Assembly (NCBI RefSeq): GCF_030816475.1
Contig: NZ_JAUSXF010000001.1
Coordinates: 1,302,001-1,366,000, forward strand
Length of the DNA stretch: 64,000 nucleotides
DNA from: Arthrobacter pascens
GTDB taxonomy: Bacteria > Actinomycetota > Actinomycetes > Actinomycetales > Micrococcaceae
Reading direction: 5' to 3'
This document shows positions 7,799 through 62,801 of this stretch, in pieces. Positions within the stretch are counted from its first letter, which is position 1; each line of letters begins with the position of its first letter. Below the pieces are notes generated by a model, which was not told the origin of the DNA, ran no database searches, and was given only the letters and a program-made list of their open reading frames with translations. Made by a program: the position numbers and the translations under genes.

Positions 7799-7821
7799 GC
7801 CTGACGTTATTTGACTCTCGG

Positions 7822-8088: not shown

Positions 8089-8105
8089 TTCTGGGAAGAG
8101 CCCTT

Positions 8106-8121: not shown

Positions 8122-8138
8122 AGGAGCTACAAAGGAAA

Positions 8139-8155: not shown

Positions 8156-8300
8156 CTTGGTCATCTGAATTAAGCCTGTCATGTTAACGCTGTGTAAACA
8201 AGGGGTAATAAGGCCCGATATCCCTGGAAACCTGAGCGATACATCACATCTGTGCTGATGGCCCCCACTACAGTCCGACTATGTCCGGTAGGGTGCCAGT

Positions 8301-48900: not shown

Positions 48901-50124
48901 ATGGACGCTGTGCGAATCGTGGAGGACGAAGTCCGCGAGCTGATCCGTCGTCGGGGTCTGGACCCGTTGCGGCAGGCGAGTGAGGTGCGCCGTTTGGTTG
49001 AGGCAGCCGTCACTGATTATGACGAGCGGGCGCTGATGGGGCCGCTGCCGCCAATTGGTCCTTTGGAGGCGGCCCGGAGGTTTGTTTTTGACGCAGTTGC
49101 GGGCTTTGGCGTCCTCCAGCCGCTGTTGGACGATCCTTCCATCGAGGAAGTCTGGCTGAACTCACCCGACGAAATTTACGTGGCCCGGAACGGGGAATCC
49201 GAGCTGACCTCCCTAAGCCTCACGGATCAACAGGTACGCGATCTGGTGGAACGCATGCTGAAGAGCTCCGGCCGCCGCCTCGATATGTCATCGCCGTTTG
49301 TGGATGCGGCGTTGCCCGATGGCTCGCGGCTGCACGTGGTCATCCCGGACATAACCCGCCGTCACTGGGCCGTCAATATCCGCAAATTCGTCGTCAAGGC
49401 GAGCCGGCTGGAACACCTGGTGGAGCTGGGCACGCTGACGCCACAGTCCGCCCGGTTCCTTGGGGCAGCTGTAGCAAGCGGGCTGAATATCCTGGTCTCA
49501 GGGGCTACCCAGGCGGGCAAGACTACAATGCTCAACTGCCTCGCAGCCAGCATCGGCAGCCGCGAACGGGTTATCACCGTCGAGGAGATCTTTGAACTCC
49601 AGTTTCCATTGCGCGATGTGGTCGGTTTGCAATGCCGCCAGCCCAACCTTGAGGGAGAAGGCGAGATACCGCTTCGCAGACTGGTCAAAGAAGCGTTACG
49701 GATGCGGCCAGACCGGCTCGTGGTGGGCGAGGTCAGGGAAGCCGAGAGCCTTGACATGCTGATCGCCTTGAACTCTGGCCTCCCCGGGATGTGCACCGTC
49801 CACGCGAACTCGGCGCACGACGCCGTGACCAAGATCTGCACGCTTCCACTGCTCGCGGGGGAAAATATCTCAAGTGCCTTTGTGGTGCCAACCGTGGCCT
49901 CCTGCATCGACCTGGTGGTGCACTGCAACCGACAGGCCAACGGCCGCCGGCAGGTGACTGAGATCCTGTCCCTGGGCCGGCGGGTGGAGAACGGCATCAT
50001 TGAATCATCGATGGTGTTCGCCATGGCGGAAGGGCAGCTGCAGCCCCGGGCGAGCTCGATGCCCTCAGCGGAGAAGTTCGCACGCGCAGGTTTCGACGTC
50101 GCGGCGCTGCTGGAGCCGCGCTAA
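48901..50124 (+). CDS. cpaF: Tad pilus assembly ATPase CpaF/TadA
   Basis: 407 residues of the type II/IV secretion ATPase family. Walker A is SGATQAGKTTMLN (about 199-211), followed by an Asp box VITVEEIFELQF, Walker B RMRPDRLVVGEVREAE and a His box CTVHANSAHDA. It powers assembly of Tad/Flp pili. GGGGA precedes ATG 48901. Its stop shares one base with the tadB start (TAATG), so cpaF-tadB-tadC form a tightly coupled operon. Confidence 0.94.
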   Translation: MDAVRIVEDEVRELIRRRGLDPLRQASEVRRLVEAAVTDYDERALMGPLPPIGPLEAARRFVFDAVAGFGVLQPLLDDPSIEEVWLNSPDEIYVARNGESELTSLSLTDQQVRDLVERMLKSSGRRLDMSSPFVDAALPDGSRLHVVIPDITRRHWAVNIRKFVVKASRLEHLVELGTLTPQSARFLGAAVASGLNILVSGATQAGKTTMLNCLAASIGSRERVITVEEIFELQFPLRDVVGLQCRQPNLEGEGEIPLRRLVKEALRMRPDRLVVGEVREAESLDMLIALNSGLPGMCTVHANSAHDAVTKICTLPLLAGENISSAFVVPTVASCIDLVVHCNRQANGRRQVTEILSLGRRVENGIIESSMVFAMAEGQLQPRASSMPSAEKFARAGFDVAALLEPR

Positions 50125-50978
50125 TGTCGGCTTTGGCCGGGGTACTCGCCGGAACCGGATTGTTTCTCATCTGGTGGTCCTGCTGGGAGCACCCCGAGCC
50201 CGTGAAAAGGCCTCCGAAGGTCAACCGGCTGGGAGACCTGCTCGCCTCGGCGGGAATAGAAAGAGTGACCGGAAGCGGCCTGATAGCCACCTGCCTCGGA
50301 CTGGGCATCTTTGTGGCACTCGTCTTCTTTACAATCAGCCGGTCCTGGCCGATCTCTGCATGCTTCGGTCTCTTCGCTGCCTGGCTTCCCTTGAGTGCCG
50401 TGCGGTGGAGGGCCAAGAAAAGGACCGCAGTACTTCGCCAGCTGTGGCCTGACGTTGTTGATCACCTTCGGTCTGCTATCCGGGCAGGATTGTCCTTGCC
50501 CGAAGCCCTCATCCAACTGGGTGAGAAGGGTCCAGAGGAGCTTAGGCATGTATTCCGTGACTTCGGTGCTGACTATCGGGCCGGAGGACAGTTTGACGCG
50601 TCCCTGAACCAGCTCAAGGACAGGCTGGCGGATCCGGTGGCGGACAGGATCGTCGAAGCACTGCGGCTGACTCGTGAAGTGGGCGGCTCGGACCTTGGCA
50701 AACTGCTCGGAACCCTTGCTGAGTTTCTTCGTGAAAATGCCAGGACCCGAAGCGAACTTGAGGCCCGGCAGTCGTGGACAGTCAACGCAGCCAAGCTTGC
50801 TGTAGCTGCTCCTTGGATCGTCATGCTCCTTCTTGCAAGCCGGCCCGAGGCGGTCCAGGCATACAACACGCCTGTGGGCGCAGGCGTGCTGCTGGGCGGA
50901 CTGGTGGTGTCACTCATCTGCTACTCCATCATGCTGCGGATCGGCGCTCTTCCCCAGGACGAGAGAGTGCTCCGATGA
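50124..50978 (+). CDS. tadB: Tad pilus inner-membrane platform protein TadB
   Basis: 284 residues with a T2SF domain (RQLWPDVVDHLRSAIRAGLS and FRDFGADYRAGG) and membrane helices at about 3-20, 55-90, 225-245 and 255-275. With TadC it forms the inner-membrane platform on which CpaF acts. It starts at ATG 50124 and its stop overlaps the tadC start (ATGA). It appears intact, unlike tadC. Confidence 0.92.
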   Translation: MSALAGVLAGTGLFLIWWSCWEHPEPVKRPPKVNRLGDLLASAGIERVTGSGLIATCLGLGIFVALVFFTISRSWPISACFGLFAAWLPLSAVRWRAKKRTAVLRQLWPDVVDHLRSAIRAGLSLPEALIQLGEKGPEELRHVFRDFGADYRAGGQFDASLNQLKDRLADPVADRIVEALRLTREVGGSDLGKLLGTLAEFLRENARTRSELEARQSWTVNAAKLAVAAPWIVMLLLASRPEAVQAYNTPVGAGVLLGGLVVSLICYSIMLRIGALPQDERVLR

Positions 50979-51859
50979 CAGGAACTTCTGCTGCCATCGT
51001 TTGCGGCATAGTTCTGGGAGCAGGTCTCTGGTTGCTGCTGTTCAGGATTCCCTTTATGCGCCCCACCACTTTCACGGAGCGCATTGAACCGCAGCTGAAG
51101 TCCCAAAACTTGGAGTCCAGGCTCCTGCAGTCCGGAGAACAGAACGTCACCCCGTTTGGCCCGCTGGAACGGATTGCGCGCCCTTTGCTCCGCGACGGCA
51201 GGACAGCGCTGGGCAGGCTCAACCTAGGTTCCAAGGCGCTCTCCCGCAGGCTTGCGCAAGCGGGCATCGCCAAGTCGCCGATTGATTTCCGGGCCGAACA
51301 GCTCCTGTGGGCTGCTGCAGGATTTGCTGTCTCACTGGCGGCTGTCGTGACGGGTGCTGTGGCCGGGAGATTCAGTCCGTTCATGGCTGTGGTGGGGGTC
51401 CTGGGAACTGCCCTGGCAGGCTTCATGTTCCGTGATTACTGGCTTGGGGTCCAGATCCGCAGGCGGGAATCCCGGATGATGGCCGAGTTCCCCAGCCTTG
51501 CCGAACTCATGGCGCTGGCAGTCGGGGCTGGCGAAAGCGCGACGGGCGCCTTGGACCGGGTCTGTCGCAGTGCGCATGGGGAACTGTCCAAAGAGTTTTC
51601 CAAGATCCTCACCGAAACCAGGGCCGGAATACCGCTGGTGGAAGCGCTCCAGGAATTTTCCGCCCGGACAAATCTGGGCCCGCTAGTTCGGTTTGTTGAC
51701 GGCATCATCGTGGCAGTGGAACGGGGCACGCCCCTGGCCGAGGTACTGAGGGCCCAGGCACAGGACGTCCGGGACACCGCCAAGCGGGATCTCATGGAAT
51801 CAGCAGGCAAGAAGGAAATTGGCATGATGGTGCCGGTGGTGAATTGTTACCTGTTCTAA
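50975..51859 (+). pseudogene. tadC: tadC 5' part, interrupted by the integrated element
   Basis: 294 codons plus stop. The first 287 are normal TadC: two N-terminal helices, a T2SF domain (MAEFPSLAELMALAVGAGE, RAQAQDVRDTAKRDLMES) and KKEIGMMVP. Codons 288-294 (VVNCYLF, then stop) come from element DNA. The genuine last helix is found in frame at 60821-60898; joining the two gives a 312-codon tadC. The truncated protein lacks its final membrane helix, so the platform is probably not functional while the element is in place. Partial function cannot be excluded. Confidence 0.9.
51828..51835 (+). other. attL core (left junction)
   Basis: TGGTGCCG is shared with 60813-60820. Reading on, the two junctions agree at 12 of 13 bases (TGGTGCCG, then G or C, then TGGT), so the crossover may lie in the 8-bp core or the adjacent TGGT. 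Short shared cores are normal for serine integrases. Confidence 0.8.
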
Positions 51860-51927
51860 ATTTTGGGCGCTTGACTGTCGGTCACGGTCGCTAAGCTGAC
51901 TTGAACCACCAACGAGAATAGGACCCG

Positions 51928-52581
51928 ATGACCGCGACCATTTGCGCCTGGTGCAAGGCACACTCCAACATGACCTTGACGTCACCTCCAACGGAAGGGA
52001 GTGCCGGAGGGAATCTCAAGTGGGCAATGGCTGCTTTTTCCTGCAATCAGTGCCACAAAATGAGCGTAGGGACCACTCTCATAACCGCAAATACCGGTGT
52101 CCCTACCAACTCCACAACGCGCTGGTGGGATGACAAAAGCATCCACTGGACGCCGGAGTCAGTCGGGGGCCGCGATTTCCCCGACGTGCCGCCGCACATT
52201 GCGGCCGCCGCCGATGAGGCGTTCCGTGACCGGAGTATTGGCACACTGCGGTCTGCGATCCTCATGGCGCGTTCCGTTATTGAGGCAACATGCAAGGACA
52301 AGGGCGTCATCAAGGGCCAGCTTGCCGCCAAGATCGACGAGATGAGCAAGCAGGGCCTAATTCGGTCATTCACCCAGGACGCGGCCCACGAGCTTAGGTT
52401 CCTCGGGAACGATATGGCCCACGGAGACTTTGTTGACCCAGTGGACGCTGATGACGCGGACGCTGTGCTGGACGTCATGGCGGAGATCCTCAACGAGGTT
52501 TACCAGGGGCCAGCCAGGGCGGGCCGTATGAAAGCCAAACGTGAGGCAAACAAGCAGGAGACCGGGGCAGGGACGCCTTGA
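51928..52581 (+). CDS. DUF4145 domain protein with zinc-ribbon N-terminus
   Basis: 217 residues. The N-terminus holds two CxxC pairs (C6/C9 and C39/C42), likely a zinc ribbon. The C-terminal half is a helical DUF4145 domain (LRSAILMARSVIEATC, then FLGNDMAHGDF with the typical H-G). DUF4145 domains occur in restriction and other defence-related proteins; the biochemical role is unknown. AGGA lies about 6 nt before ATG 51928. The stop overlaps the next start (TTGA), so the two are translated together. It is the first gene inside attL and in line with cpaF-tadB-tadC transcription. Confidence 0.85.
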   Translation: MTATICAWCKAHSNMTLTSPPTEGSAGGNLKWAMAAFSCNQCHKMSVGTTLITANTGVPTNSTTRWWDDKSIHWTPESVGGRDFPDVPPHIAAAADEAFRDRSIGTLRSAILMARSVIEATCKDKGVIKGQLAAKIDEMSKQGLIRSFTQDAAHELRFLGNDMAHGDFVDPVDADDADAVLDVMAEILNEVYQGPARAGRMKAKREANKQETGAGTP

Positions 52582-53483
52582 AAATCTTCATCAGCTGGTC
52601 CGGCGAGGAAAGCCAGCAGGTTGCACGCGCGCTGAAAGCGTTCTTGAAAAAGTTACTCCAGGCTACTGAGCCCTGGATGAGCGAAGTGGACATACAGCCT
52701 GGAACTCGATGGTCCGAACGCATCGCGTCTGAACTCCAACTGTCGCAGTTCGGAATCATCTGTGTCACGCCTGAAAACCGTTCCTCAGAATGGATTAATT
52801 TTGAGGCTGGCGCCCTCTCCATAGCCATGGGCGACTTGGACCGGAAAGTGGTCCCGCTGCTGATTGGTTTTGAGGAACGCGGGGACCTGCACCGGGGACC
52901 GCTGGGGCTTTTCAACGCTGTCCGATTCATGGAGGACGACGTATGGAAACTCGTTCTCACCCTCAACGGCGAACTGGAGGTCGGTCTCGACGGAAACGAC
53001 CTCCGGGAACTGTTCGACGTATTTTGGCCGAAACTGGAGGTCGAGGTTGCCAAGCTCCAAGAGCTCGCCGGAACTCCAAAGCTACCCAAGAAAAGCCAGT
53101 CTGAGCTTACTCAGGAGATATTGGATACAGTTCTTGAGATCCAGCGTCAGCTGCAACTGCAATCCAAAGGTGACGAAAGCATCCCTCTGGCCGCGCTCCT
53201 TGCGGCCGCCGGGCCTACTTGGCCAACAGCAAGCCCCACACAGCGAGTGTCGGACAGGTATGTGGTGTCTGAGCGGCGACCGGACAAAGCGTTGACCACT
53301 CGGGAGAGGGAAATTGCGAGACTGGCACAATCTGGGATGAGTATCCGCGAGATAGCACAGCTACTGACGTTATCGAGCCGAACCGTTGAGGGTCACCTGT
53401 ACCAGATTTTCGCCAAACTTGGCATTACATCATTCAGTGACTTACCCACCGACCGTGAATCTGGATCCGACAAGGACGCGTGA
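52578..53483 (+). CDS. TIR-domain protein fused to a LuxR-type DNA-binding domain
   Basis: 301 residues. Residues about 1-150 form a TIR-like domain: the opening strand MKIFISWSGEE, VDIQPGTRWSERI, ICVTPENRSSEWINFEAGAL. The WxxxE pattern places Glu76 as the candidate NADase glutamate. A linker follows (about 165-235), then a GerE/LuxR helix-turn-helix at about 239-287 (LTTREREIARLAQSGMSIRE, SSRTVEGHLYQIFAKLGI). Bacterial TIR proteins often act in anti-phage defence by NAD depletion or signalling; a LuxR tail would add DNA binding or self-regulation. The start is TTG 52578, coupled to the DUF4145 gene. A pure regulator role is the alternative. Confidence 0.85.
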   Translation: MKIFISWSGEESQQVARALKAFLKKLLQATEPWMSEVDIQPGTRWSERIASELQLSQFGIICVTPENRSSEWINFEAGALSIAMGDLDRKVVPLLIGFEERGDLHRGPLGLFNAVRFMEDDVWKLVLTLNGELEVGLDGNDLRELFDVFWPKLEVEVAKLQELAGTPKLPKKSQSELTQEILDTVLEIQRQLQLQSKGDESIPLAALLAAAGPTWPTASPTQRVSDRYVVSERRPDKALTTREREIARLAQSGMSIREIAQLLTLSSRTVEGHLYQIFAKLGITSFSDLPTDRESGSDKDA

Positions 53484-53494
53484 TTCCTCCGGGT

Positions 53495-53785
53495 TCATAT
53501 TGTGCGTTTTGAGGACGGCCGCACACGCGGCGTCGCTGCAAACCGTTGGCGCAGTTCGTCCAGACTGTTGCTGCCCTTAGTAGGGGTTGCGGTGGCCATG
53601 ACGCGGCCCAGGTCCTTGAGCGTGGAGAGGTAGGCCGCGGATAGGCGAGTAGAGGGGTCCGCTCCGGCGGCGTCCATCTGTCCGGCCAGGGTGCGTACCA
53701 GTTCCACGAGGGCCGTGTGGCGGCCGTTGAGGATGCTCCCGGCCGCGGTGATGGTCGCCTCGACGGCGTCCAGGTGCTTACTCAT
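53495..53785 (-). CDS. Small phage-type protein, possibly terminase small-subunit-like
   Basis: 96 residues, mostly helical (HLDAVEATITAAGSIL, ALVELVRTLAGQMDAAG, LSAAYLSTLKDLGRVM). Proteins of this size and pattern sit next to capsid genes in actinobacterial phages and are often labelled terminase small subunit; the match is from memory and weak. If right, it could direct packaging of element DNA by a helper phage. It is the last gene of the minus-strand set and converges on the TIR gene, with 11 nt between the stops. Confidence 0.5.
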   Translation of the reverse strand: MSKHLDAVEATITAAGSILNGRHTALVELVRTLAGQMDAAGADPSTRLSAAYLSTLKDLGRVMATATPTKGSNSLDELRQRFAATPRVRPSSKRTI

Positions 53786-53924
53786 TTGCTTGCTCCTTGT
53801 GGGTGAAAAAGTGCGGGGGGAGGGAAACCACTCTCACGGTGGAGTGGCCCGCCGTTTCAAACGTGGCGATCCGAACCCCCTACCCCTCACGGTGCCCCGC
53901 GGGGGCGTGTGGGGGGGGTACGGG

Positions 53925-53959
53925 AGCGCCCGCCAGCGGGTGGGGTGCTGGCGGGCGCT
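53925..53959. terminator. Strong hairpin after the capsid gene
   Basis: A perfect 13-bp stem (AGCGCCCGCCAGC and its complement) with a 9-nt loop, followed on the plus strand by TTCTTG. It lies about 120 nt beyond the capsid stop and 140 nt before the small terminase-like gene, and could separate the two transcripts. The remaining 293-bp gap (53786-54078) shows no gene. Confidence 0.55.
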
Positions 53960-54078
53960 TTCTTGTTCCCTGGTGGCGCTGGCGGGCGTTGACGCCGGGC
54001 TAGAAGATGTTCCCCGACTGGTCCCGCCATCCGTCCGCGCTCTCAACACGGTGCGGTTGACGCCGCCGTGGCGGGGGC

Positions 54079-55224
54079 TTAGACGGTGACGAACGTTCCC
54101 TTGAGGACGGCGGAGGGCCTGCGGCATTCGAGAGAGAACCTTCCCTCGGTCCGCGCCTGCACCTGGTTGCGGGTGAATGCGTCGCCGGGCGTTCCCCATT
54201 CGGTAACAATTCCGGCGTCGCGGCCGATGACGGCGGCGCCCTCGCCCAGCAGGTAGTAGGAGTTGGCGGCCAGTGAGTTGGACAGGGCAACGGGTACGCC
54301 CCACGCCTTCCGTGTTTCGGCGTTGATGGCGCTGCCGGTGTCGAACTCGCCGGAGGCGTTCCGCTTGATCGTCAGCGCCTCCCAGTCCGCCGGGTTGAGG
54401 ATGAACTGGACCGGAACCTCCCCAGCCGTTTCCAGCTTGGTGAGGGCCTTACGGAGTTCCACCAGTTTGTCCGTGTTGCCCGCGGTGGACGTGAACGTCT
54501 GAATGCCGGATGTGTTGGCCAGGCCGGTGAGGTTGTCCCCGGTGCCGTTGCCGCTGAGGACCTGGGTTTCCAGGGCGGTGAGGACGGACTGGGTAAGCTC
54601 CTGGCCCACCCAAGTCTGGAGGGCCTCCCCATCCGAGAGGACAAACTTGTCCATAAGTTCGCTGAGCGTCGCAATGACGGACAGCTTGCCGTCCTTTTTG
54701 ACCAGGGACAGGACGGACGTGGGCTTGACGGCGCCGTTGGAGACAACGGCCGCGTTCTCGGTCCTGACGGACTGGGCCAGGTAAGAGTAGGCGGCGGGCC
54801 GCTCCACGCTGGGGATGGCCTCCAGGAACGACCGGAGCGGGCGTCCCAGGGTTACCGGAGTCGTGTCAATCAGAGGCGTGCCCACCACAACGGACCCGTT
54901 GGTGACCAGGGCCTTGGCGCCCTCCGGGGTGGTGCCTTTCATGGCGTATGTCAATGTGATGGCATGGGCCTTGGAGCCAAGGTCAAGGTACTGGGTGCCG
55001 TCGCCGGATTCACCCATCGGTCCCGCTGCCTCGGCAATGGCCTGGGTGAGGGACTTCTGGCCGCCTACGCGGGCAATGCTGGCGTCATAGCCCTTGATTT
55101 CAGCGTGGAGGCCCTCAACCTGGGTAACCTCCTGGTCCGTGAGGTCCCGGCCGCCGGACTTGGCGGCGTCAATGATGGCCTGGGCGGACTTGAGGGCGGC
55201 GGCACGCTTTACGTGAATGGACAT
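54079..55224 (-). CDS. HK97-fold phage major capsid protein
   Basis: 381 residues in the gp5-type pattern: a helical N-terminal region (about 1-75, RAAALKSAQAIIDAAKSGG and AEIKGYDASIARVGG) that may act as a scaffold domain, then the capsid fold with PVTLGRPLRSFLEAI, LSELMDKFVLSDGEALQTWV, FILNPADWEALTIKR, PVALSNSLAANSYYLLG and the C-terminal TEGRFSLECRRPSAVLKGTFV. It should form the shell of a small capsid. No protease or portal gene is next to it, so it must rely on helper proteins or self-assemble. It has its own 269-bp upstream gap and so may be separately expressed. Confidence 0.9.
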   Translation of the reverse strand: MSIHVKRAAALKSAQAIIDAAKSGGRDLTDQEVTQVEGLHAEIKGYDASIARVGGQKSLTQAIAEAAGPMGESGDGTQYLDLGSKAHAITLTYAMKGTTPEGAKALVTNGSVVVGTPLIDTTPVTLGRPLRSFLEAIPSVERPAAYSYLAQSVRTENAAVVSNGAVKPTSVLSLVKKDGKLSVIATLSELMDKFVLSDGEALQTWVGQELTQSVLTALETQVLSGNGTGDNLTGLANTSGIQTFTSTAGNTDKLVELRKALTKLETAGEVPVQFILNPADWEALTIKRNASGEFDTGSAINAETRKAWGVPVALSNSLAANSYYLLGEGAAVIGRDAGIVTEWGTPGDAFTRNQVQARTEGRFSLECRRPSAVLKGTFVTV

Positions 55225-55453
55225 TGTTTGCTCGTTTCGATGAGTGCTGAGGCGCCGCGGTCCACGCGGGACGGGCTGGCGCCGATGAGGGGTGACGCGG
55301 TGGTGAGCGGGCGGGCTGGTTACCGCTGGCGTCTGCCTGGTGCGTCATGAAACGAGACGGGTTCCGGGAGCTACTTACTCGCTGGTTACCGGGTTGCCCC
55401 GGCCTCCACAGCTTTAGCGTGCTCCGCTATGTGGCCTCAGTAGAGAGGATAGC

Positions 55454-55487
55454 CCGCGGGCCGGACAATTAACAGCCAGGCCCGCGG
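55454..55487 (-). terminator. Hairpin between small gene and capsid gene
   Basis: CCGCGGGCC (55454-55462) pairs with GGCCCGCGG (55479-55487) across a 16-nt loop, just past the stop of the 55494-55775 gene on the minus strand. There is no U-tract; it may end or slow transcription before the capsid gene. Confidence 0.4.
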
Positions 55488-55493
55488 CGCGTC

Positions 55494-55775
55494 CTAGGGT
55501 TGCGTTTCCAGTTGATAGAGGCGCTCCAGGACGACGTCCACCCGGGGCGTCAGGACGCTGACCAGGACCACACGTCCGCCCGCGTAGTGCGGGGCCTCCA
55601 GCCCGCGCTCCATGAGGAGGTCCTGTTCATCACAGGCCAGCGCGTGGAACACGTCCTCTGTGGTGCGGCTCCACTCCGGCGCCTCCCGCCGCTTGGTGAT
55701 TTCGATCCGGGAGACTTCGGCTCCGGTGGAGACGGCGAGACGGTGACCGGCAGGCGTGAATCGCTTAGCGCCCAT
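55494..55775 (-). CDS. Hypothetical element protein, 93 residues
   Basis: The sequence begins MGAKRFTPAGHRLAVST and continues with EVSRIEITKRREAPEW, FHALACDEQDLLMERGL and a C-terminal VVLVSVLTPRVDVVLERLYQ. No known domain is recognised. I chose ATG 55775 because the upstream gene stops one base before it (TGA-G-ATG), giving coupled translation; the frame runs on to 55817. It is the last of three coupled small genes before the capsid gene. Confidence 0.65.
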   Translation of the reverse strand: MGAKRFTPAGHRLAVSTGAEVSRIEITKRREAPEWSRTTEDVFHALACDEQDLLMERGLEAPHYAGGRVVLVSVLTPRVDVVLERLYQLETQP

Positions 55776-55776
55776 C

Positions 55777-56115
55777 TCAGAGGTCCCGGGGTCCGAGTTC
55801 GCGGCGGAGGGCCTCATAACGGGACTGGGCTACCCCATGGCGCTGCCGGGCCATAAGGTCAGCGGCCAGACACAACAGCGCCTCCGTGAACGGGTCCGCG
55901 GTCTGGTGGCCCAGGATCTTCTCCACGGCCTCGCCCATGGTCATGCCGTCCATGAGGCCGGAGGCGGCCAAATTCTCCATGTATTCGGCGCCGATGATCT
56001 GGACAACCCGTGTGTCCCCCTCCACCAGGGCGGTGACCGCCCGGACGGCCAGGGCGTGCTTGTCCGCCGGGATGGCGTTGTTGATGAGGGGAAATACTTC
56101 GTTGGGGGTGTTCAT
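55777..56115 (-). CDS. Hypothetical element protein, 112 residues
   Basis: A mostly helical acidic protein (ALAVRAVTALVEGDTRVVQI, MTMGEAVEKILGHQTADPF, CLAADLMARQRHGVAQSRY). No family recognised. Its ATG overlaps the stop of the upstream gene (ATGA), and its own stop is one base before the next start, so all three small genes are coupled. Confidence 0.68.
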   Translation of the reverse strand: MNTPNEVFPLINNAIPADKHALAVRAVTALVEGDTRVVQIIGAEYMENLAASGLMDGMTMGEAVEKILGHQTADPFTEALLCLAADLMARQRHGVAQSRYEALRRELGPRDL

Positions 56116-56438
56116 TTTGTGTTCCCGCTTTCGATTTTGAGGGTTGCCTCTGCGATTAGGTGCTGTAGGCCCTTGGTGCCCATGCCGCCCGTTTCCTCAT
56201 CCAGGGCGCCAACGTGGAGTCCGAGAATACGGCCGAGTCCGAGAATGAGGCCCGTTGCGGCGGCGTCGTCCCCGGAGTCGTTGGCGGCCTGGAGGATGTT
56301 GTCCAGGACCGCGGCAACTCCCAGGCGGTCCTCCGCCCGGAATGCGAGTCCCAGGCGGGCCGCGTGGATGAGGTCCACGTGGCGGATTTTTACGGCCTCC
56401 GTGAACGTATTGGGTTGGCGGTTAGGAGTTGTTGTCAT
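56112..56438 (-). CDS. Hypothetical element protein, 108 residues
   Basis: Helical protein with a polar N-terminus (TTTPNRQPNTFTEAV), then IRHVDLIHAARLGLAFRAED and GLILGLGRILGLHVGALDEE. No family recognised. It is the first of three coupled genes and begins about 50 nt beyond the GGTGACCG array, so its promoter probably lies next to or within that array. Confidence 0.66.
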   Translation of the reverse strand: MTTTPNRQPNTFTEAVKIRHVDLIHAARLGLAFRAEDRLGVAAVLDNILQAANDSGDDAAATGLILGLGRILGLHVGALDEETGGMGTKGLQHLIAEATLKIESGNTK

Positions 56439-56488
56439 GGTGTCCTCCGTGGGTGTGTGTGGGGGTTGTTTTGTCGTCTGTGGTCCGC

Positions 56489-56699
56489 GGTGACCGGGAC
56501 GCCGCTCCTATAGGGAGGAGGAGCGGCGGTCACCTGCCAGGGATTACCGGGTGCCGGGGGTGACCGGAGGGGCGCGGTCACCCTGCATCCCTGTATTGGC
56601 GCGGATTTTAGGGTGGGTGACCGGAGGTGACCGGAACGGGCGCGGTCACCTTTTTTGGACCCGTCCGGAGGGTAGGTGACCGCGGGGGGAGCGGTCACC
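56489..56699. repeat. Nine GGTGACCG motifs arranged as hairpins; candidate replication origin
   Basis: Exact 8-mers on the plus strand start at 56489, 56559, 56616, 56626 and 56675; exact complements start at 56527, 56575, 56643 and 56692. They pair into successive inverted repeats with identical 8-bp stems; three of the loops are only 8-9 nt. The array fills the gap between the primase-polymerase stop and the next gene. Repeats of this kind beside a replication gene suggest iterons or an origin. One hairpin is followed by six Ts on the plus strand, but no plus-strand gene ends there. Confidence 0.75.
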
Positions 56700-58765
56700 T
56701 AAACCAGCCCCTCAAGGGAGTCCTGCATGGGCATCCCGTGGCGGTCCCGGCGGGCCTTGATGGCGGCGTCCAGGACGTTGTTTGAGGCGGTGATCCCGGA
56801 CCCGGAGAGGGCGGCCCGCAACGTTTTGCGGCCGGTGTCCAGCGGGAGGTCCTCCTGGTCCATGAACGCCACCACCGCCGCCTCCTTGTGCCGGAACGCG
56901 GCCGCGGCTCCGGCGCCCTCTACCTTGTGCCGGAGCGGATCCTGGAGGCGCTCAAAGATGAGTGTTTTCTCCGTGATGGGCATCCGGGCCGCTTCACAGT
57001 CCAGGCGGAAAGTTTTGTCCTGGACTACGGTGGAGAGCCTCCACACGGCGTCCACGTCACCGCTCTTGGCGGACCCGCCGCGCTGGCCTTTCGTTTCGTC
57101 CTTGCCGGAGTGGTCCAGCCGGACCAGGGAAACGCCGCGCTGTTTGAGCTTGAGGCCGGTGTGCCTGTAGAAGTTGAGCCAGGTGTCATTCTCGTTTTCC
57201 AGGCCCTCCACGGCGCGGGAGACGGTGTCTACCACCACCACCTCAGACCGGTAAGTGTCCAGGGCCGCCATGAGTTCCAAGGATCCGCGCTCAGTGTCCA
57301 GCGCGGCCATGGACGGGAATGACAGGTAGTCAAGCCGCCCCAGGTCCGCCGCCTGGTATCCCATGGCCTTGAGCCGGGGGATGACGTCCGCGTCAATGTC
57401 GTTCTCAAAGTCCACGTAGAGGACCCGCCGGGGCGCTGGCACTGTGCCCAGGACTTCCCGGCCGGAGGCGACGGCGGCGGCTATCTCCAGCATGAGGAGG
57501 GACTTTCCCATCTTGGGCGGGGAGTACAGCGCCACCAGCCGCCGGGCCGGGAGGATCGGCTCCACAATCCACTCCTGGACGATGGGACGGTCCCAACGAT
57601 CCGCCCAGTTCACCACCGGGAGGACCCGCTCCACCACGCCCTGGACGTCCGCCACGGCCGGGGCCGCCTCGGCTACGGGGGCAAGGACCGCGAGCGCCAC
57701 CGGCCGGTCCTCCGGCATGATGAGGCCCTCCAGTTGGGCGAGCGGATCCGCGCAAGGATCCGCGGTGGCCACGGACCGGGCGGCGGCGATACTCACGGCG
57801 CCGTCCTGGAGGCGGTCCCATTCCGCGGCGGCCTCCTCCGGCGTACGGTCTCCGTCCACGGCGTCCAGGAACTCGGACCGGACCACGCCCAGGGCCTCCA
57901 GCGCCCCGTTGTGGCCCTCCGCCGCCAGGTGGCAAACACCCATCGCGGCATCCATGGCCGCGTCATGCCTGGAGCGTTGCCCCAACGCGAGCGCCGCGGC
58001 GTAACCCTGGGCGGCGTGGGCCATCCGGCGGCAAGATTCCCCGGCCCCGCGGTCCGCCAGCCAGGCGTTGACGGCGGCGGCGTCCAGTGCGGCGGCTGTG
58101 ACGTGTTGCTCAGTCGCGCCGGACGTGAGGCCGTCAATCCACGGTTGGGGCAGGGGTACCAGGTCCGCCGGGGAGGGGACGCCGCTGGCGCGGATGACGC
58201 CGTCCGGCCCGGTCCAGCGGTAGGTCCCGCCGTTGGGGTGGATCGACGGCCACACCACGGCGTAGCGGTGCCTGGTCTGGATGACCTCTATCCCGTTGCC
58301 CAGGTCCCCGGGCCACCGGAGTCCCTCCGGCACGCAATAGAGGCGGATCCCGGACACGCCGTCCGCCCTGGACCCGGTCCGCCACGTTTCCGGCAACGGC
58401 CCATAGGCGTCCTGGAGGGCGGCAAGGGTCCCGCCGCCGTCCTTGCCGTCATAGTGGTCCACGTCGATCCCGATAACGCCCGGGGGCAGACGGAGGGCTA
58501 TGTTTCCGTCCGGGAACTGTTCGGACCAGTCATAGACGTCCGAGTAGCTGGGCCACGCCCCGTCCCGTCCCGTGTACCCGGCGGGCACGGGCTTTTTCTG
58601 GCGGGCCGGGATGGGCAGGACACCCAGCCACCCGGCGTCCCGGTACAGGTCGAACGCCTCCCCGTAAACGGCGCCTCCGCTGGGTAAACTCTGGGGAGGT
58701 AAAGCTTGGACGCCTTGCTGGTGAATCGCCCCGGATCCCCCACCGGGGCTTTTCTCTGCCCTCAC
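56699..58765 (-). CDS. Primase-polymerase fused to a RepA/KaiC-type helicase ATPase
   Basis: 688 residues. The N-terminal half is a bifunctional primase/polymerase (about 35-230): VLPIPARQKKPV, then GVIGIDVDHYD with the metal-binding D101xD103, and the YAVVWPSIHPNGGTYRW region. The C-terminal half is a RecA-like ATPase: Walker A YSPPKMGKSLLM (about 407-418), VLYVDFEND, Walker B EVVVVDTVSRA, then LVRLDHSGKD. This is a self-contained replication initiator of the kind found in plasmids, satellites and prophages. I chose GTG 58765 because it overlaps the upstream stop (GTGA); the frame is open to 58834. Confidence 0.88.
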   Translation of the reverse strand: MRAEKSPGGGSGAIHQQGVQALPPQSLPSGGAVYGEAFDLYRDAGWLGVLPIPARQKKPVPAGYTGRDGAWPSYSDVYDWSEQFPDGNIALRLPPGVIGIDVDHYDGKDGGGTLAALQDAYGPLPETWRTGSRADGVSGIRLYCVPEGLRWPGDLGNGIEVIQTRHRYAVVWPSIHPNGGTYRWTGPDGVIRASGVPSPADLVPLPQPWIDGLTSGATEQHVTAAALDAAAVNAWLADRGAGESCRRMAHAAQGYAAALALGQRSRHDAAMDAAMGVCHLAAEGHNGALEALGVVRSEFLDAVDGDRTPEEAAAEWDRLQDGAVSIAAARSVATADPCADPLAQLEGLIMPEDRPVALAVLAPVAEAAPAVADVQGVVERVLPVVNWADRWDRPIVQEWIVEPILPARRLVALYSPPKMGKSLLMLEIAAAVASGREVLGTVPAPRRVLYVDFENDIDADVIPRLKAMGYQAADLGRLDYLSFPSMAALDTERGSLELMAALDTYRSEVVVVDTVSRAVEGLENENDTWLNFYRHTGLKLKQRGVSLVRLDHSGKDETKGQRGGSAKSGDVDAVWRLSTVVQDKTFRLDCEAARMPITEKTLIFERLQDPLRHKVEGAGAAAAFRHKEAAVVAFMDQEDLPLDTGRKTLRAALSGSGITASNNVLDAAIKARRDRHGMPMQDSLEGLV

Positions 58766-58974
58766 GCTGATCCACCGCCCGGGCGGAGCAGGACGGCGAT
58801 ACGTTCGGACTGTTCCGGGCTGAGCGGCGGCCACGTCTCAACCAGGCGGCGGACGTGCTCCTGGAGGGTGAGCGCCTTGAGGTCCCGCTGGAGTTCCGTG
58901 TGGTCGCCGTTGGGGTGGTGGCGCTTGGCGGCGGCCACCTTGGCCTTGGCTGTGGTGATATCTTTCCGCGACAT
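58762..58974 (-). CDS. Hypothetical 70-residue element protein
   Basis: A basic, helical protein (DITTAKAKVAAAKRHHPNGD, ALTLQEHVRRLVETWPPLS, EQSERIAVLLRPGG). Proteins of this pattern recur near recombinases of actinobacterial mobile elements, but no function is known to me. Its stop overlaps the primase-polymerase start, so it leads that operon. The likely ribosome site (AAAGGG, 8 nt before ATG) lies inside a hairpin. Confidence 0.7.
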   Translation of the reverse strand: MSRKDITTAKAKVAAAKRHHPNGDHTELQRDLKALTLQEHVRRLVETWPPLSPEQSERIAVLLRPGGGSA

Positions 58975-58980
58975 AGAAAG

Positions 58981-59024
58981 AGCCCTTTCGGGGATGCAAA
59001 AATCTGCACCTCACCGGAAGGGCT
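58981..59024 (-). promoter_or_regulatory. Hairpin hiding the ribosome site of the replication operon
   Basis: On the minus strand AGCCCTTCCGG pairs with CCGAAAGGGCT (one mismatch) around a 22-nt loop that itself contains TGCA...TGCA. The right arm includes AAAGGG, the only ribosome site for ATG 58974, and CTTTCT follows. It could block translation or end transcription. Confidence 0.5.
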
Positions 59025-59104
59025 CGGTCTAACTCTGTCGCTAACGGGCCTGACAGCCAACCCGCCCGATGTTCTGGGCTATTGCTTGGGACTCTAGCAT
59101 CTGC

Positions 59105-59404
59105 TCAGCCCCCAAGCATGTAGGTTGCCGTGTGGCGTGTCCTGTCGGCCTCCACCTCATCCAGGAGGGCAAGCACCTTGACCCAGGAGCCGCGCAAGTC
59201 CAGTCGGCGGCCCGCCGCCAGACAGGACAGGCACGTGACCGCCAGCGGATGGTCCAGCGGATTATCACCCTCAAAGTCCCCGGCCGTCATGTGATAGCGG
59301 CCCACGGACTTCCGGACCGTTGCCACCGTGTGCTTGCTGGGGCATTGGAGGACCACCATTCCGTCCAGGTTGTCCACCTGGATCCCCTTACTTTTGCGGC
59401 TCAT
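59105..59404 (-). CDS. Hypothetical 99-residue element protein
   Basis: The sequence includes VDNLDGMVVLQCPSKHTVAT, then HPLAVTCLSCLAAGRRLDL, and a helical end VKVLALLDEVEADRTRHTAT. A lone cysteine (C22) and a CLSC pair could bind metal. Its start overlaps the integrase stop by 4 nt (ATGA), so it is co-translated with the integrase and might be a helper such as an excision factor; this is inference only. Confidence 0.65.
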   Translation of the reverse strand: MSRKSKGIQVDNLDGMVVLQCPSKHTVATVRKSVGRYHMTAGDFEGDNPLDHPLAVTCLSCLAAGRRLDLRGSWVKVLALLDEVEADRTRHTATYMLGG

Positions 59405-60780
59405 GCTGCCTGTCCTTTCGGTTCAATCCGGATCTGGTCCGGCGTGAACCGGATCCCCTTACCTGCCTTTTCCACGGTGACGTCCATGAGGGCGCGGATA
59501 ATCTGCCGCTTGTTCTCAAGGGGGAGGGCAGCCCACTGTTCCGGGACGTTCGCCGCCCCCGCGATGGCAGCCATCGGGTTGAGCGTCTCGTGGGCGCCAA
59601 TGGCCCCCTCCACCGTGGCCAGGTCCGCGCCCAGCTTGCCCGCCTGTTCCCGGACCGCGGCGGCGGACAGGAGCCCGTCCGCCAGCATCGCCGCGAGGGC
59701 GTCACGGCGTTCACGTAGCTCCACGGCCCGCGCTCGCAGGGCGCGGAGGTCATCGGACCGGGAGAACAGGCGGGCCGCGTCCGGCCGGGACAGGATGCCC
59801 ATGACCACGTCCTCCACCACGCCGTCCACCAGATCCATACGGCGGGTGATGTGGTAGCCGAAGCACCGGTACACCATGTTGTTGACCTTGCCTTTGCCCA
59901 TGGGGGAGGCGTACATCTTGTCACCGCAGACGGAACAGACGCATATTCCCGATAGCAGGTACTTAGTGTTGAGATCCTGGGGTGCGGTCCGGCGACGCGG
60001 GTCCGTCAGTTTCTCCTCAAGGCGGCGGTGGGTTTCCTCGTCCAGGATGGCGTCCCATTCCCCGGACCCCATGTCCTCGCCGTTGTATATCCGGCGGCCT
60101 GCCATGCGCGGGTTGATAAGGAGCCGCCGGACCTGGGTGACACCCCACGCACCGCCAGCCGTGGTGGTGTAGCCCAGGCCGTTCCACTGTTTGGCAACGG
60201 AGGCGACGGTGGCGCCCTCAAGGATGCTCACGGCGCCCTCCCGGATCAGCCGGGCCTCATCCTCCACCACAAAGACCCCGGACTCCCCGCGGTCATATCC
60301 GAACGGGCGGCGTGACCAGTAGGCGTTACCCTCCGACGCGCGTTTCCTGTTGGCGGTCCGCTGACGGTTTCCCTTGTGCTGGACCTCCATGGCGGCAATG
60401 GCGGCCAGGATGGTTGCCACGGCAATGCCGGTAGGGTCGCCCAGGTCGATGGAGACGCCATGCACGGACGCTATGTTCACGTTCCGCGCCTTACCGGCGT
60501 CGATGACGCGGGTAAGGTCCGCGATGGAACGAGTGAGGCGGTCCAGGTGCCACACCACCAGGGCGTCCACCTGCCCGCGCTCAATGTCACCCACCAGTTG
60601 CTCAAAGCTGGGCCGGTTCTTGCCGCTGGACGCACTGATGGAGTTGTCCCGGTAGACCTTGGCCACCTCCCAGCCCTTGGCCTCCGCTATTAGACGGCAA
60701 TCCCGCTCTTGACGTTCAATCGCGGCACCCTCGCCGGTCTTGTCCTCGCTCTGCCTCACATACACCGCTACGCGTTTCAT
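59401..60780 (-). CDS. int: Large serine recombinase (integrase)
   Basis: 459 residues. The N-terminal resolvase domain (1-150) has VYVRQSED with catalytic Ser11 and HLDRLTRSIADLTRVIDAG carrying the conserved Arg residues. A recombinase domain follows (RPFGYDRG, GYTTTAGGAWGVTQVRRLL, NPRMAG), then a zinc ribbon (CVCSVCGDKMY, then YRCFGYH) and a coiled-coil C-terminus (LRALRARAVELRERRDALAA). This family joins short attP and attB sites directionally and needs a separate directionality factor to excise. ATG 60780 opens straight into the catalytic domain; the frame extends past the attR core only by chance. The start is 32 bp from the attR core. Confidence 0.95.
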   Translation of the reverse strand: MKRVAVYVRQSEDKTGEGAAIERQERDCRLIAEAKGWEVAKVYRDNSISASSGKNRPSFEQLVGDIERGQVDALVVWHLDRLTRSIADLTRVIDAGKARNVNIASVHGVSIDLGDPTGIAVATILAAIAAMEVQHKGNRQRTANRKRASEGNAYWSRRPFGYDRGESGVFVVEDEARLIREGAVSILEGATVASVAKQWNGLGYTTTAGGAWGVTQVRRLLINPRMAGRRIYNGEDMGSGEWDAILDEETHRRLEEKLTDPRRRTAPQDLNTKYLLSGICVCSVCGDKMYASPMGKGKVNNMVYRCFGYHITRRMDLVDGVVEDVVMGILSRPDAARLFSRSDDLRALRARAVELRERRDALAAMLADGLLSAAAVREQAGKLGADLATVEGAIGAHETLNPMAAIAGAANVPEQWAALPLENKRQIIRALMDVTVEKAGKGIRFTPDQIRIEPKGQAA

Positions 60781-60812
60781 GAGTCCACAGTAAGGGGTAA
60801 AGGTCACCATTG

Positions 60813-60820
60813 TGGTGCCG
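60813..60820 (+). other. attR core (right junction)
   Basis: TGGTGCCG, identical to 51828-51835. To its left is element DNA (GGTAAAGGTCACCA at 60796-60809). To its right the genuine tadC frame resumes with codons for LVFGVLPLTVVFAVFPG. Confidence 0.8.
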
Positions 60821-60898
60821 CTGGTATTCGGTGTCCTTCCGCTGACAGTTGTCTTTGCGGTGTTTCCCGGTATTGCGGCCATCAGCCTGGGCCTCTAG
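60821..60898 (+). pseudogene. tadC: tadC 3' remnant encoding the last membrane helix
   Basis: 26 codons including the stop: LVFGVLPLTVVFAVFPG then IAAISLGL. This is the typical C-terminal helix of TadC and continues in frame from codon 287 of the left part after removal of the element. It has no start or ribosome site of its own and is silent while separated. Confidence 0.9.
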
Positions 60899-60968
60899 TG
60901 GGTCCCCGTGTAACGATCCGGCTCCGGACAATTGAAAAAGAAACGCTGGCCGGCGGCCGGTATTCCGC

Positions 60969-61013
60969 GGCACATAGAGAACTGGCACATAGGGAACTGG
61001 AACATCAAGAAAT
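60969..61013 (+). repeat. 15-bp tandem repeat in the pilin leader
   Basis: GGCACATAGAGAACT, GGCACATAGGGAACT and the weaker GGAACATCAAGAAAT lie end to end, finishing 10 nt before the pilin ATG. The third unit has drifted. Role unknown; it may affect the leader RNA. Confidence 0.6.
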
Positions 61014-61022
61014 GGGACGAAA

Positions 61023-61289
61023 ATGAATAATCTGGGAATTCGGCGTCGCCTATTGATCCTGCTCATCATGGCAGCCCTCTGGACCTCGGCCACAGCCAGT
61101 GCGTGGAGTACCGCGAAGGGGCTGCCACTTCCGGATGGTCCGGCAGAGGACCACCCGGAGCGTGGTGATGTCCCGGGCTGGGTAATGATCACCCTCATGT
61201 CAGCTGTCTTGGTCGCAGCTTTGCTCGCGCTTGCCGGCCCGGCACTCGAAACGATGTTCAACCAGGCCATGGACAAGGTCGGAAAGTAG
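61023..61289 (+). CDS. Small Flp/pilin-like protein of the Tad system
   Basis: 88 residues: an N-terminal hydrophobic segment (RRLLILLIMAALWTSATA), a polar middle, then GDVPGWVMITLMSAVLVAALLALAGP, the hydrophobic helix typical of actinobacterial Flp-like pilins, ending with TMFNQAMDKV. It probably forms the pilus fibre after processing. It lies 124 nt after the tadC remnant. In the present state transcription from the cpaF promoter must cross the 9-kb element, so expression would need a local promoter. Confidence 0.75.
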   Translation: MNNLGIRRRLLILLIMAALWTSATASAWSTAKGLPLPDGPAEDHPERGDVPGWVMITLMSAVLVAALLALAGPALETMFNQAMDKVGK

Positions 61290-61292
61290 GCC

Positions 61293-61709
61293 ATGCGACG
61301 GCAGGGCCGGTCCGGACACGCAAGGAGGGCCGGCCGGCCAATGGATGAACGCGGCTCCGCGGTAGTGGACTTCGTGATGGTGGGCGGCCTGCTCACCATG
61401 TTTTTCCTGGCCATTATCCAGCTCGCCCTGGTCCTGCACGTCCGGAACACCCTGATCGACGCCGCTGCTTCAGGGGCGCGGTATGGAACTCTCGCGGACC
61501 GCGGGGCAACGGATGCTGCGGAACGGGCGGCGGACCTGATCGTAACCGCACTGAATGCTGACTTCGCCCAGGACATCACCACCTCGGAAGTGACCTTTCA
61601 GGGGCTCAGAACACTGGAAGTGACGATCAGGGCCCCCATACCCGTGATTGGCCTCATCGGACCCCGGGAGATGCTGGAGGTCAAGGGACATGCTGCAATC
61701 CAGCCCTGA
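61293..61709 (+). CDS. tadE: TadE-family minor pseudopilin
   Basis: 138 residues with the TadE signature DERGSAVVDFVMVGGLLTMF (a Glu-containing leader junction followed by a hydrophobic helix) and an extracytoplasmic C-terminus (ITTSEVTFQGLRTLEVTI). TadE proteins are cleaved by a prepilin peptidase and help pilus assembly. ATG 61293 is 3 nt after the pilin stop; the ATG at 61341 (MDERGSAVV) is a possible shorter start. Confidence 0.85.
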   Translation: MRRQGRSGHARRAGRPMDERGSAVVDFVMVGGLLTMFFLAIIQLALVLHVRNTLIDAAASGARYGTLADRGATDAAERAADLIVTALNADFAQDITTSEVTFQGLRTLEVTIRAPIPVIGLIGPREMLEVKGHAAIQP

Positions 61710-62241
61710 ACCCAGGGGACAATCCCTGCCGGCCCTCCTGCACGAAAGGTTGGGGGAAGCGCTATGCCGTGGCTCCGGCGGCCCGCCTTCGAAAACCTGC
61801 CCGTCCACGAACCCCCGTCAGCTTCCCGAACCCGAACAGGGGAGTGCGGTGGTCGAATTTACATTCCTGGCATTGCTCCTGATGGTCCCGCTCGTGTACT
61901 TCATCATCACGTTGGGGCAAATCCAAGGTGGAGCCTTTGCCGTGACGGGCGCGGCTGACCAGGCCGCCAAGGTTTACGTGGGCCAGCCCGACGCCCGTTC
62001 AGCCCAAACGGCGGCGGAGCAGGCAGCCCTCATTGCCTTGGCGGACTACGGCCACAACGCGTCGGAAGCCCGGGTTTCAACCAGCTGTGACCAAGCCGAC
62101 TGCCGGGCCGCGGGATCGGCCGTTACTGTCACCGTGCATCTGACCGTGAGCCTGCCCTTCGTCCCTTTCAGCGACGACTTCCGGCTCAACGTCAGCGAAG
62201 TCGAGGCATCCTCCACGCAATTGGTCGGGAGGTTCCGCTGA
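61690..62241 (+). CDS. TadE/TadF-like pseudopilin
   Basis: 183 residues from ATG 61690, which overlaps the tadE end. The core is EQGSAVVEFTFLALLLMVPL (leader junction plus helix) and an extracytoplasmic part with two cysteines (STSCDQADCRAAG). The first 60 residues are low-complexity and may not be translated. In a different frame an ATG at 61764 has a better ribosome site (GGGGGAAGC) and opens with MPWLRRPAFENLP, but it would need a frameshift to reach the helix. The start is therefore uncertain. Confidence 0.75.
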   Translation: MLQSSPEPRGQSLPALLHERLGEALCRGSGGPPSKTCPSTNPRQLPEPEQGSAVVEFTFLALLLMVPLVYFIITLGQIQGGAFAVTGAADQAAKVYVGQPDARSAQTAAEQAALIALADYGHNASEARVSTSCDQADCRAAGSAVTVTVHLTVSLPFVPFSDDFRLNVSEVEASSTQLVGRFR

Positions 62242-62312
62242 CACCCGGACAAACCGGCCAACAGGCCGACAAACAGACTGCCGCAAGCACCGCTGGACAC
62301 CCAGTCATACGC

Positions 62313-62744
62313 ATGGACGAAGATGGCCAGATGATCGTCCTCATCATCGGCTATGTGCTGCTGGCACTCCTCGTGACCACCCTGGTTGTGGGCATCTCCA
62401 GCGTCTACCTCGAACACAAGCGGCTTCTGTCGTTGGCTGACGCTGCATCGCTCGCGGCCGCCGGCAGCTACACCCTGGGGGATGTCGACACTGCGAGAGG
62501 AAGCCCATCCGCCAGCCTTGACTCCGAACGTGTCAGGAATGTCGCCAACGACTTCATCACCAGGACACCTGCCTCCCGGCGGTTCGATGACCTGGCCGTC
62601 ACCTCCGGGACGGGCACGCCGGACGGTTCCACCGCCGTCGTGGTCCTGCGAGCAGCGGTCCACCCGCCGGTGGTGAACTTCCTTGTTCCGGACGGGATCA
62701 GCATCGAGGCAACCTCCACCGCCCGGTCCAGGCTCACCCGATGA
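62313..62744 (+). CDS. TadG-related pilus assembly protein
   Basis: 143 residues starting DEDGQMIVLIIGYVLLALLV, the TadE/TadG-type hydrophobic leader, followed by YLEHKRLLSLADAASLAAAG, the pattern of the Flp-assembly TadG N-terminal family, and an extracytoplasmic beta-rich end. It is the last Tad gene, 57 nt before prfB. Confidence 0.8.
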   Translation: MDEDGQMIVLIIGYVLLALLVTTLVVGISSVYLEHKRLLSLADAASLAAAGSYTLGDVDTARGSPSASLDSERVRNVANDFITRTPASRRFDDLAVTSGTGTPDGSTAVVVLRAAVHPPVVNFLVPDGISIEATSTARSRLTR

Positions 62745-62801
62745 CCTGGAAAGGCCATGGGGTCCGGGGGCCCGCGCCGGATGGCGTAGGGTTAAATAAC
62801 C

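Follow-up and report, generated by a model that had tools for sequence, protein, structure and literature searches.

A probable capsid-encoding phage satellite in the tadC gene of Arthrobacter pascens and its capsid relatives among actinobacterial mini-elements

The closest described counterparts of the locus reported here are the candidate phage-inducible chromosomal islands (PICIs) of mycobacteria, which are defined by an integrase and a major capsid protein (MCP), in some cases accompanied by a helicase, a terminase or a scaffold, and which include phiRv1 and phiRv2 (PMC10654092). A satellite nature has been proposed for these islands, with induction and packaging by a helper described there as not yet demonstrated (PMC10654092). 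phiRv1 spans 9.3 kb and carries a serine integrase, phiRv2 spans 10.8 kb and carries a tyrosine integrase, and phiBN42_1 encodes an integrase, an excisionase, a primase, a protease and an MCP (PMC3986857). More generally, many actinobacterial prophage elements of less than 15 kb could be satellites (PMC10023795). The current study concerns a stretch of 64,000 nucleotides from Arthrobacter pascens (NZ_JAUSXF010000001.1, positions 1,302,001 to 1,366,000; hereafter the window), in which a serine-integrase element of 8985 bp (51828-60820) interrupts tadC. This element is probably a capsid-encoding phage satellite, which would contribute its own MCP, its own replication and perhaps packaging specificity and borrow the rest from a helper. 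A sequence-only reading of the stretch had already proposed a satellite with a self-made capsid that depends on a helper phage for everything else, and the proposal is now supported by the closest kin, in which no prophage remnants were found, by a capsid clade shared with other mini-elements and by the recurrence of the gene set with other integrases.

Staphylococcus aureus pathogenicity islands (SaPIs) build their shells from the helper capsid protein and have no MCP of their own, and the satellite P4 encodes a primase-helicase (the alpha protein) with a C-terminal origin-binding part and holds a cargo hotspot with defense genes. The window element resembles P4 in having a primase-helicase with a putative C-terminal origin-binding part as well as a slot for defense-like cargo. 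P4 hotspots have been reported (PMC9122126), and P4 redirects P2 capsid assembly with the scaffold Sid (PMC10690885), whereas no such gene was recognized in the window element, whose small genes gave no confident Pfam or PHROGs match in a general scan that did not search for the P4 size-determination and polarity genes by name. SaPIs obtain smaller shells via scaffolding proteins, whereas the window element brings its own MCP; in some SaPI-type PICIs an own small terminase subunit (TerS) redirects packaging while the helper supplies the motor, and the same may apply here (PMC10690885). Capsid-forming PICIs (cf-PICIs) likewise have their own MCP and depend upon helper tails, as the window element presumably does, but they encode the MCP, protease, portal, connectors and both terminase subunits, compared to an MCP and perhaps TerS in the window element (PMC10690885). 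The Mulch and Flayer satellites have the large terminase subunit (TerL), a portal and a scaffold without a replication gene (PMC10690885), whereas the window element has a primase-polymerase (PrimPol)-helicase and no TerL or portal that we could find. Phage-inducible chromosomal minimalist islands (PICMIs) are described as lacking capsid-remodeling genes (PMC10803314); the window element has its own MCP, which may or may not amount to such remodeling. The Streptomyces plasmid pWTY27 shares a PrimPol gene, iterons and a capsid of the same clade, but it is a plasmid with Tra proteins (PMC3583192). As for the mycobacterial candidates, both of their defining genes, integrase and MCP, are present in the window element by Pfam; it differs from them in its site, tadC, and its Arthrobacter-like host, and no counterpart of the separate prohead protease gene of phiBN42_1 was found in it. 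The likeness to phiRv1 and phiRv2 is one of description, as the mycobacterial loci in our capsid tree are others. The suggestion that this gene combination might be undescribed in an Arthrobacter-type host consequently stands only in part: the kind is already known from mycobacteria (PMC10654092), and no report of such elements in Arthrobacter, or of a single capsid lineage shared by mini-elements, was found in the titles, abstract starts and passages of the open-licence literature.

When the flanks are joined across the element, a continuous tadC frame runs through to the natural protein end, and the element is therefore real. The sequence-only reading had placed it between two copies of TGGTGCCG (51828-51835 on the attL side and 60813-60820 on the attR side), a placement borne out by the restored frame and not by the repeat. 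The latter was rejected as evidence because the 8-mer occurs 11 times in the window (8 on the + strand and 3 on the - strand), so that the pair alone is no proof of an element. The 5' part of tadC, a Tad-pilus gene, reads into the element and stops after a few element-supplied codons (50975-51859, + strand), with the severed 3' end at 60813-60898 on the same strand. TadC itself loses its C-terminal ~25 residues to the insertion and receives a few element-coded residues instead (51836-51859 versus 60813-60898). The host genome comprises 4.68 Mb in two contigs. A survey of the genus covered 61 genomes: 55 have an intact tadC, 4 carry an interruption close to the codon used here (the window's genome, G296, G319 and G345), and in the other 2 (G342 and G317) the gene is in fragments or was not recovered whole; the insertion in G345 (locus L116) is the element of Arthrobacter sp. 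ISL-85 (locus L052) again.

From the integrase end, the element encodes on its - strand a large serine integrase (59401-60780; start MKRVAVYVRQS; Pfam; 48-89% identical in six same-site relatives), two small genes, a PrimPol + AAA_25 helicase replication protein (56699-58834; start codon uncertain), a hairpin-repeat array (56486-56700; no strand assigned), three tightly packed small genes, a non-coding leader (55225-55493), the HK97-type MCP of 381 residues (54079-55224; PF05065, E 1.3e-21), a hairpin-bearing non-coding block (53922-54078) and a TerS-like gene (53495-53785). Two opposite-strand genes follow, the first reached encoding TIR (TIR_2) with a C-terminal LuxR-type helix-turn-helix (52578-53483, + strand; Pfam; PADLOC TIR-TM model, E 1.3e-53, residues 1-200) and the other a DUF4145 protein (51928-52581, + strand; Pfam E 2.7e-16; weak PADLOC PD-T7-4 match, E 7.4e-6). 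Pfam profiles thus confirm the serine integrase, the primase-polymerase/helicase and the HK97-type MCP named by the sequence-only reading, and Pfam and PADLOC matches agree with its divergent defense-like cargo pair.

Other virion genes were sought with profiles built from eight annotated actinophages, covering TerS, TerL, portal, protease, MCP, adaptor, stopper, tail terminator, major tail and tape measure. Within 48001-63000 of the window the MCP alone matched at E 1e-3, with no match to TerL, portal, protease, neck or tail genes, and the same profiles recovered 8 to 10 of the ten genes in each of five full prophages from the same family. No lysis family was seen among the ten element proteins scanned with Pfam and PHROGs, a scan that included no dedicated lysis profile. 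The portal, large terminase, tail and lysis genes that the sequence-only reading had not seen were accordingly not found in these scans either, but that reading overlooked the TerS-like gene. It had also held that portal, terminase and tail remnants in close relatives would speak for a deletion derivative of one prophage; within the elements of the closest relatives, L052, L024 and L023 (the last followed to its contig end), the profiles matched no portal, TerL, protease, neck or tail gene. A tape-measure match in L023 (5984-7447) was not counted, as it lies ~5 kb outside the element and beside ORFs 7432-9122, which were taken, from the reading of the ORFs only, for the cell-division pair ftsE/ftsX.

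Capsid matches occur in 39 of 295 Micrococcaceae genomes. The 20 stretches around the better matches comprise 14 with an MCP and no portal, TerL, neck or tail gene (one of which, L034, is cut by a contig start), 5 full prophages and 1 broken fragment. Across whole genomes, the portal profile matched in none of the 15 with MCP-only elements or the fragment (G289) and in all 5 with full prophages; PF04860 gave a single sub-threshold match in those 15 genomes (G198, 30.6 bits), away from the element. A scan of GTDB species genomes yielded 53 named loci, 7 of them already known, including the complete close relative L052, with a capsid 88% identical, and members in Streptomyces, Rhodococcus, Gordonia, Mycolicibacterium, Leucobacter, Pseudonocardia, Propionibacterium and others. 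Eight insertions occupy the same tadC codon (~286), namely the window, L052, L026, L036, L037, L023, L114 (in G296) and L115 (in G319), with that of L023 truncated by a contig end and so visible from a single side. Six complete MCP-bearing tadC insertions measure 8.46, 8.75, 8.96, 8.99, 9.30 and ~9.55 kb (the last being L115), and L114 measures ~11.6 kb with no capsid found. The same kind of gene set is also found with unrelated tyrosine integrases, and in L064 it lies near an intact tadC. One genome (G236) holds two different capsid mini-elements, L024 and L025, whose integrases are of the serine type in one case and of the tyrosine type in the other.

The capsids of these elements group together. 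In a maximum-likelihood tree of 68 MCPs, 36 of the 37 from mini-elements or plasmids form one clade (support 100/100), and all 31 sampled phage MCPs, which include some of the best phage matches of five clade members, fall outside it. The exception is the mini-element MCP of L041, on an end branch of 2.19; the L115 MCP also lies outside (branch 3.95), and a single clade holding all 38 was not rejected by the approximately unbiased test (p 0.236). Identities to phage capsids are 26-37% in the rows listed for the five clade members, every matched phage record is below 60%, and two capsid matches among viral contigs are 33-34% identical and come from short contigs (L021 and L022). As the tree is unrooted and sampling began from the window element, 'one lineage' is meant relative to the sampled phages. 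Seven loci were left out as repeats of earlier places (L051, L053, L059, L065, L071, L079 and L081); L076, L078, L084, L086-L092, L098, L101 and L103, mostly proteobacterial phages, short contigs and unclear neighborhoods, were dropped before the 68-row tree; and the L105 capsid was trimmed of its first 60 residues. In an earlier tree, which excluded L095 for its shortness as well as loci that yielded no MCP at E 1e-10 (for example L029, L094 and L102), the clade comprised 34 rows (SH-aLRT, an approximate likelihood-ratio support, 97), with L041, L076 and L101 outside; L101, from Microvirga, had been labeled a protease-bearing mini-element and was placed among proteobacterial phages, and its portal may have been missed.

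A census of 36 clade elements found an integrase in 34, a portal in 2, a protease in 6, a tape measure in 3 and TerL in none, and the profiles gave no adaptor, stopper, tail terminator or major tail protein in any of the 36 stretches examined (the rows for L104 and L105 were entered by hand from a separate scan). The two in which no integrase was found, L034 and L061, are truncated at contig ends. On 13 actinobacterial full-phage loci the same profiles found TerL in 12 and the portal in all 13; as the loci were chosen because they possess a portal and further head genes, this result validates the profiles without giving an independent rate. The extra genes are a portal with a protease-MCP fusion in L055 and L056, a protease joined to the MCP in L054, L060 and L066, and a separate protease in L062; the mycobacterial loci L060, L066 and L068 lie inside the clade. 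In three elements a tape-measure protein follows the MCP with no other tail gene found (L057:11825-13951 and L058:11178-14147 by Pfam, L063:11165-14503 by profile), and these possibly set tail length as well as the capsid. Evenly balanced, in our estimation, is the broader proposal that Actinobacteria host an old, separate lineage of 'capsid-swap' satellites, in which single virion parts are carried while the helper always supplies the packaging motor, and whose MCP split once from phage capsids and was then passed among mini-elements and even to a conjugative plasmid. Its hosts would include at least Arthrobacter, Streptomyces, Rhodococcus, Gordonia, mycobacteria, Leucobacter and Pseudonocardia, and its virion sets would be the MCP alone, the MCP with TerS, or the MCP with a protease, a portal or a tail tape measure.

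The element probably also encodes a small terminase. The product of 53495-53785 (- strand), 96 residues long and predicted to be all-helical, matches Terminase_6 below threshold (E 1.3e-4; 22.9 bits versus a Pfam cut-off of 27 bits) and belongs to a family, A4, of 20 rows with members in the window, L052 and L032, in both of which relatives the homologue lies downstream of the MCP. One frame in L056 bridges A4 and phage TerS, being matched by the profiles of both (4e-6 for phage TerS, 2e-4 for A4). TerS above the Pfam cut-off, with no TerL found alongside, occurs in L056, L104, L070 and L060, and a recognized TerS or TerS-like gene is present in 7 of the 36 clade elements. A very weak protease-profile match in L104 (E 0.0015) was not counted.

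The replication module shows modular exchange. The hairpin-repeat array noted by the sequence-only reading is indeed present: four GGTGACCG copies lie in hairpin-forming units with CGGTCACC after the primase gene, and CGGTCACC occurs 8 times, both strands counted, within the 300 bp that follow this gene, a count reached by none of 200 base shuffles. In its PrimPol half, the replication protein is common to the window, L023 and L052 (68-95% identity to the window per 40-residue block); from residue ~395 the helicase half of L052 differs from that of the window (12-36%). Downstream, the window and L023 have 8-9 copies of CGGTCACC, while L052 has AGTGCCCC repeats instead. Since the helicase half and the repeat array swap together, the array is read as a putative replication origin, presumably bound by the C-terminal half of the replication protein. 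Of 10 replication genes, 7 are followed by a conspicuous repeated 8-mer, equaled in no more than 2 of 200 base shuffles, and none is preceded by one; no downstream array was found for L033, L037 and L067. At the DNA level, the integrase, the PrimPol half, p112 to the MCP and the TerS stretch align between the window and L052, whereas the interval between integrase and primase, the helicase half with the array, and the cargo do not.

The remaining features, all on the - strand, are small genes and conserved non-coding DNA. Between integrase and primase lie p99 (59105-59404; 43% in L064) and the conserved p70 (58762-58974; homologues in L026, L032, L036, L037, L056 and L064), and beyond the array lie p108 (56112-56438; 63% in L023, with no L052 match at E 1e-3), p112, which overlaps it (55777-56115; 86% in L052, 76% in L023; 15 homologues), and p107 (55494-55775; 77% in L052 and L023), whose start is set by homologues beginning MGAKRF. 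The leader upstream of the MCP (55225-55493) has 187 of 239 aligned bases identical in L052 and 229 of 264 in L023, and it has no Rfam match at E up to 1, nor has the element as a whole any Rfam match. The block after the MCP (53922-54078) is identical to L052 at 135 of 156 aligned bases (86.5%), compared to 69% at MCP synonymous sites, and contains a strong hairpin (53915-53975, fold z -4.43); located beside the TerS-like gene, it could be a packaging site or a terminator.

Related elements can also exist as circles, as follows from two plasmids whose capsids both fall within the clade. L104, the 13.6-kb Rhodococcus pyridinivorans plasmid NZ_CP096036, is a circular head-to-tail dimer of a 6.8-kb integrase-TerS-MCP element, with halves 99.8% identical and one MCP copy annotated as two pieces, although it may be an assembly artefact. 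L105, Streptomyces pWTY27, is a plasmid with TraA/TraB and an MCP of the mini-element clade; its authors, who studied replication and conjugation, called the capsid match unexpected (PMC3583192).

Based upon these features, a working model of the element can be proposed. The serine integrase would place the element at, and excise it from, tadC codon ~286, with excision presumably induced by a helper. The PrimPol-helicase would then replicate the element from the array just downstream of its own gene, which its C-terminal half would recognize, and the HK97-type MCP together with the TerS-like protein would cause element DNA to be selected for shells of its own type. The portal, prohead protease, large terminase, neck and tail would be taken from an infecting HK97-type siphovirus, and the DUF4145 and TIR/LuxR pair would be swappable cargo, probably for defense against competing phages.

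Several points weigh against this satellite model. For the window element, the particle, the excised circle and transfer by a helper are inferences from sequence, and a foreign MCP would have to work with a helper portal and protease at no more than 37% identity to the phage capsids listed for five clade members. The TerS identity of the window gene is a weak call: comparison of the A4 and phage TerS profiles gives a probability of 21% (hhalign, E 0.001), 29 of the 36 clade elements have no TerS recognized by actinophage profiles or Pfam, and the contig of L023 ends 75 bases after the MCP, leaving the corresponding region outside it. The protein model has confident helices (mean pLDDT 81) but no Foldseek match at E 0.001, so the fold search speaks neither for nor against TerS. 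The host genome has no portal by PF04860 or the actinophage portal profile, and thus no resident helper is in sight. Furthermore, L115 combines a related integrase at the same site with an HK97 capsid unlike the others, which together with the undetected capsid of L114 indicates that capsid and integration module are not strictly tied. Finally, distant clade members carry one or two extra virion genes and L054, the nearest tree neighbor of the window group, has a protease-MCP fusion; loss from a somewhat richer ancestral element is therefore possible, and the window element may have lost a protease.

The cargo raises an alternative that we consider unlikely, in which the MCP is an anti-phage weapon that co-assembles with an incoming phage capsid and spoils or resizes it, with the element moving by other means. 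The far-end cargo differs among the six tadC insertions compared: DUF4145 and TIR in the window, a pair with DUF6932 in L052, the PADLOC candidate pair PDC-M02A/B in L036, an Mrr-type endonuclease in L037, DUF3800 in L026 and an MmeI-type restriction enzyme in L115. Such defense-like slots would suit a weapon, as would the frequent occurrence of the MCP as the sole virion gene found and its presence on pWTY27 alongside TraA/TraB. However, TerS beside the MCP in several relatives and a portal or fused protease in others point to packaging, mixed shells become less likely given an identity of less than 40% with the phage capsids listed, and the 8.5-9.6 kb span of six insertions fits a packaging limit.

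Descent of the element from a single ordinary HK97-type prophage, by deletion or by decay, is very unlikely. In favor of it, the capsid belongs to the HK97 type and has its best phage matches among HK97-type actinophages, the G289 relative has decayed to a capsid fragment with a stop, and clade members keeping one or two more head genes imply that gene loss occurs in the lineage. Nevertheless, the frames are intact, as the sequence-only reading had stressed in setting the element apart from a rotting prophage, with no internal stops in the seven element genes compared, and those genes are under purifying selection across three hosts, as judged by the ratio of nonsynonymous to synonymous substitution rates (dN/dS, Nei-Gojobori) between the window, L052 and L023. 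Values are mostly 0.1-0.35: 0.21-0.30 for the MCP, 0.11-0.17 for the integrase, 0.21-0.35 for p112, 0.18 for p107, 0.25 for the TerS-like gene (window-L052 only) and 0.155 for the primase (window-L023), with 0.55 for p108 (window-L023 only); the primase pairs with L052 reach 0.66-0.70 because half of the L052 protein is unrelated. The separation of the clade from 31 of 31 sampled phage capsids, the lack of TerL in all 36 clade members and of remnants in the closest kin, and best listed phage identities of 29-37% for five clade capsids, with all matched records below 60%, are likewise at odds with such a prophage parent. Scarcely credible is an integrative plasmid-like element whose capsid gene is a domesticated, encapsulin-like compartment protein: the self-replication module, the plasmid relatives and the single shell gene would fit, but Pfam gives PF05065 plus a weak match to another phage capsid family and no encapsulin family at E 0.05, a profile built from the MCPs of 15 elements hits HK97 capsid chains, among them 3qpr with its delta domain, and no dedicated enzyme cargo gene was recognized beside the MCP.

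The capsid-making satellites described in the papers cited bring whole head and packaging genes, whereas the lineage of the window element seems to contribute a single shell protein, with a packaging address at most, and to borrow the portal, protease and motor. If true, this would show to what extent two genomes can share out the parts of one virion, and whether a capsid protein can be swapped without its partners would become directly testable. It would also help to place phiRv1/phiRv2-like elements, which have long been catalogued as prophage-like remnants, and would mark a slot for defense-gene cargo in Arthrobacter-type soil bacteria.

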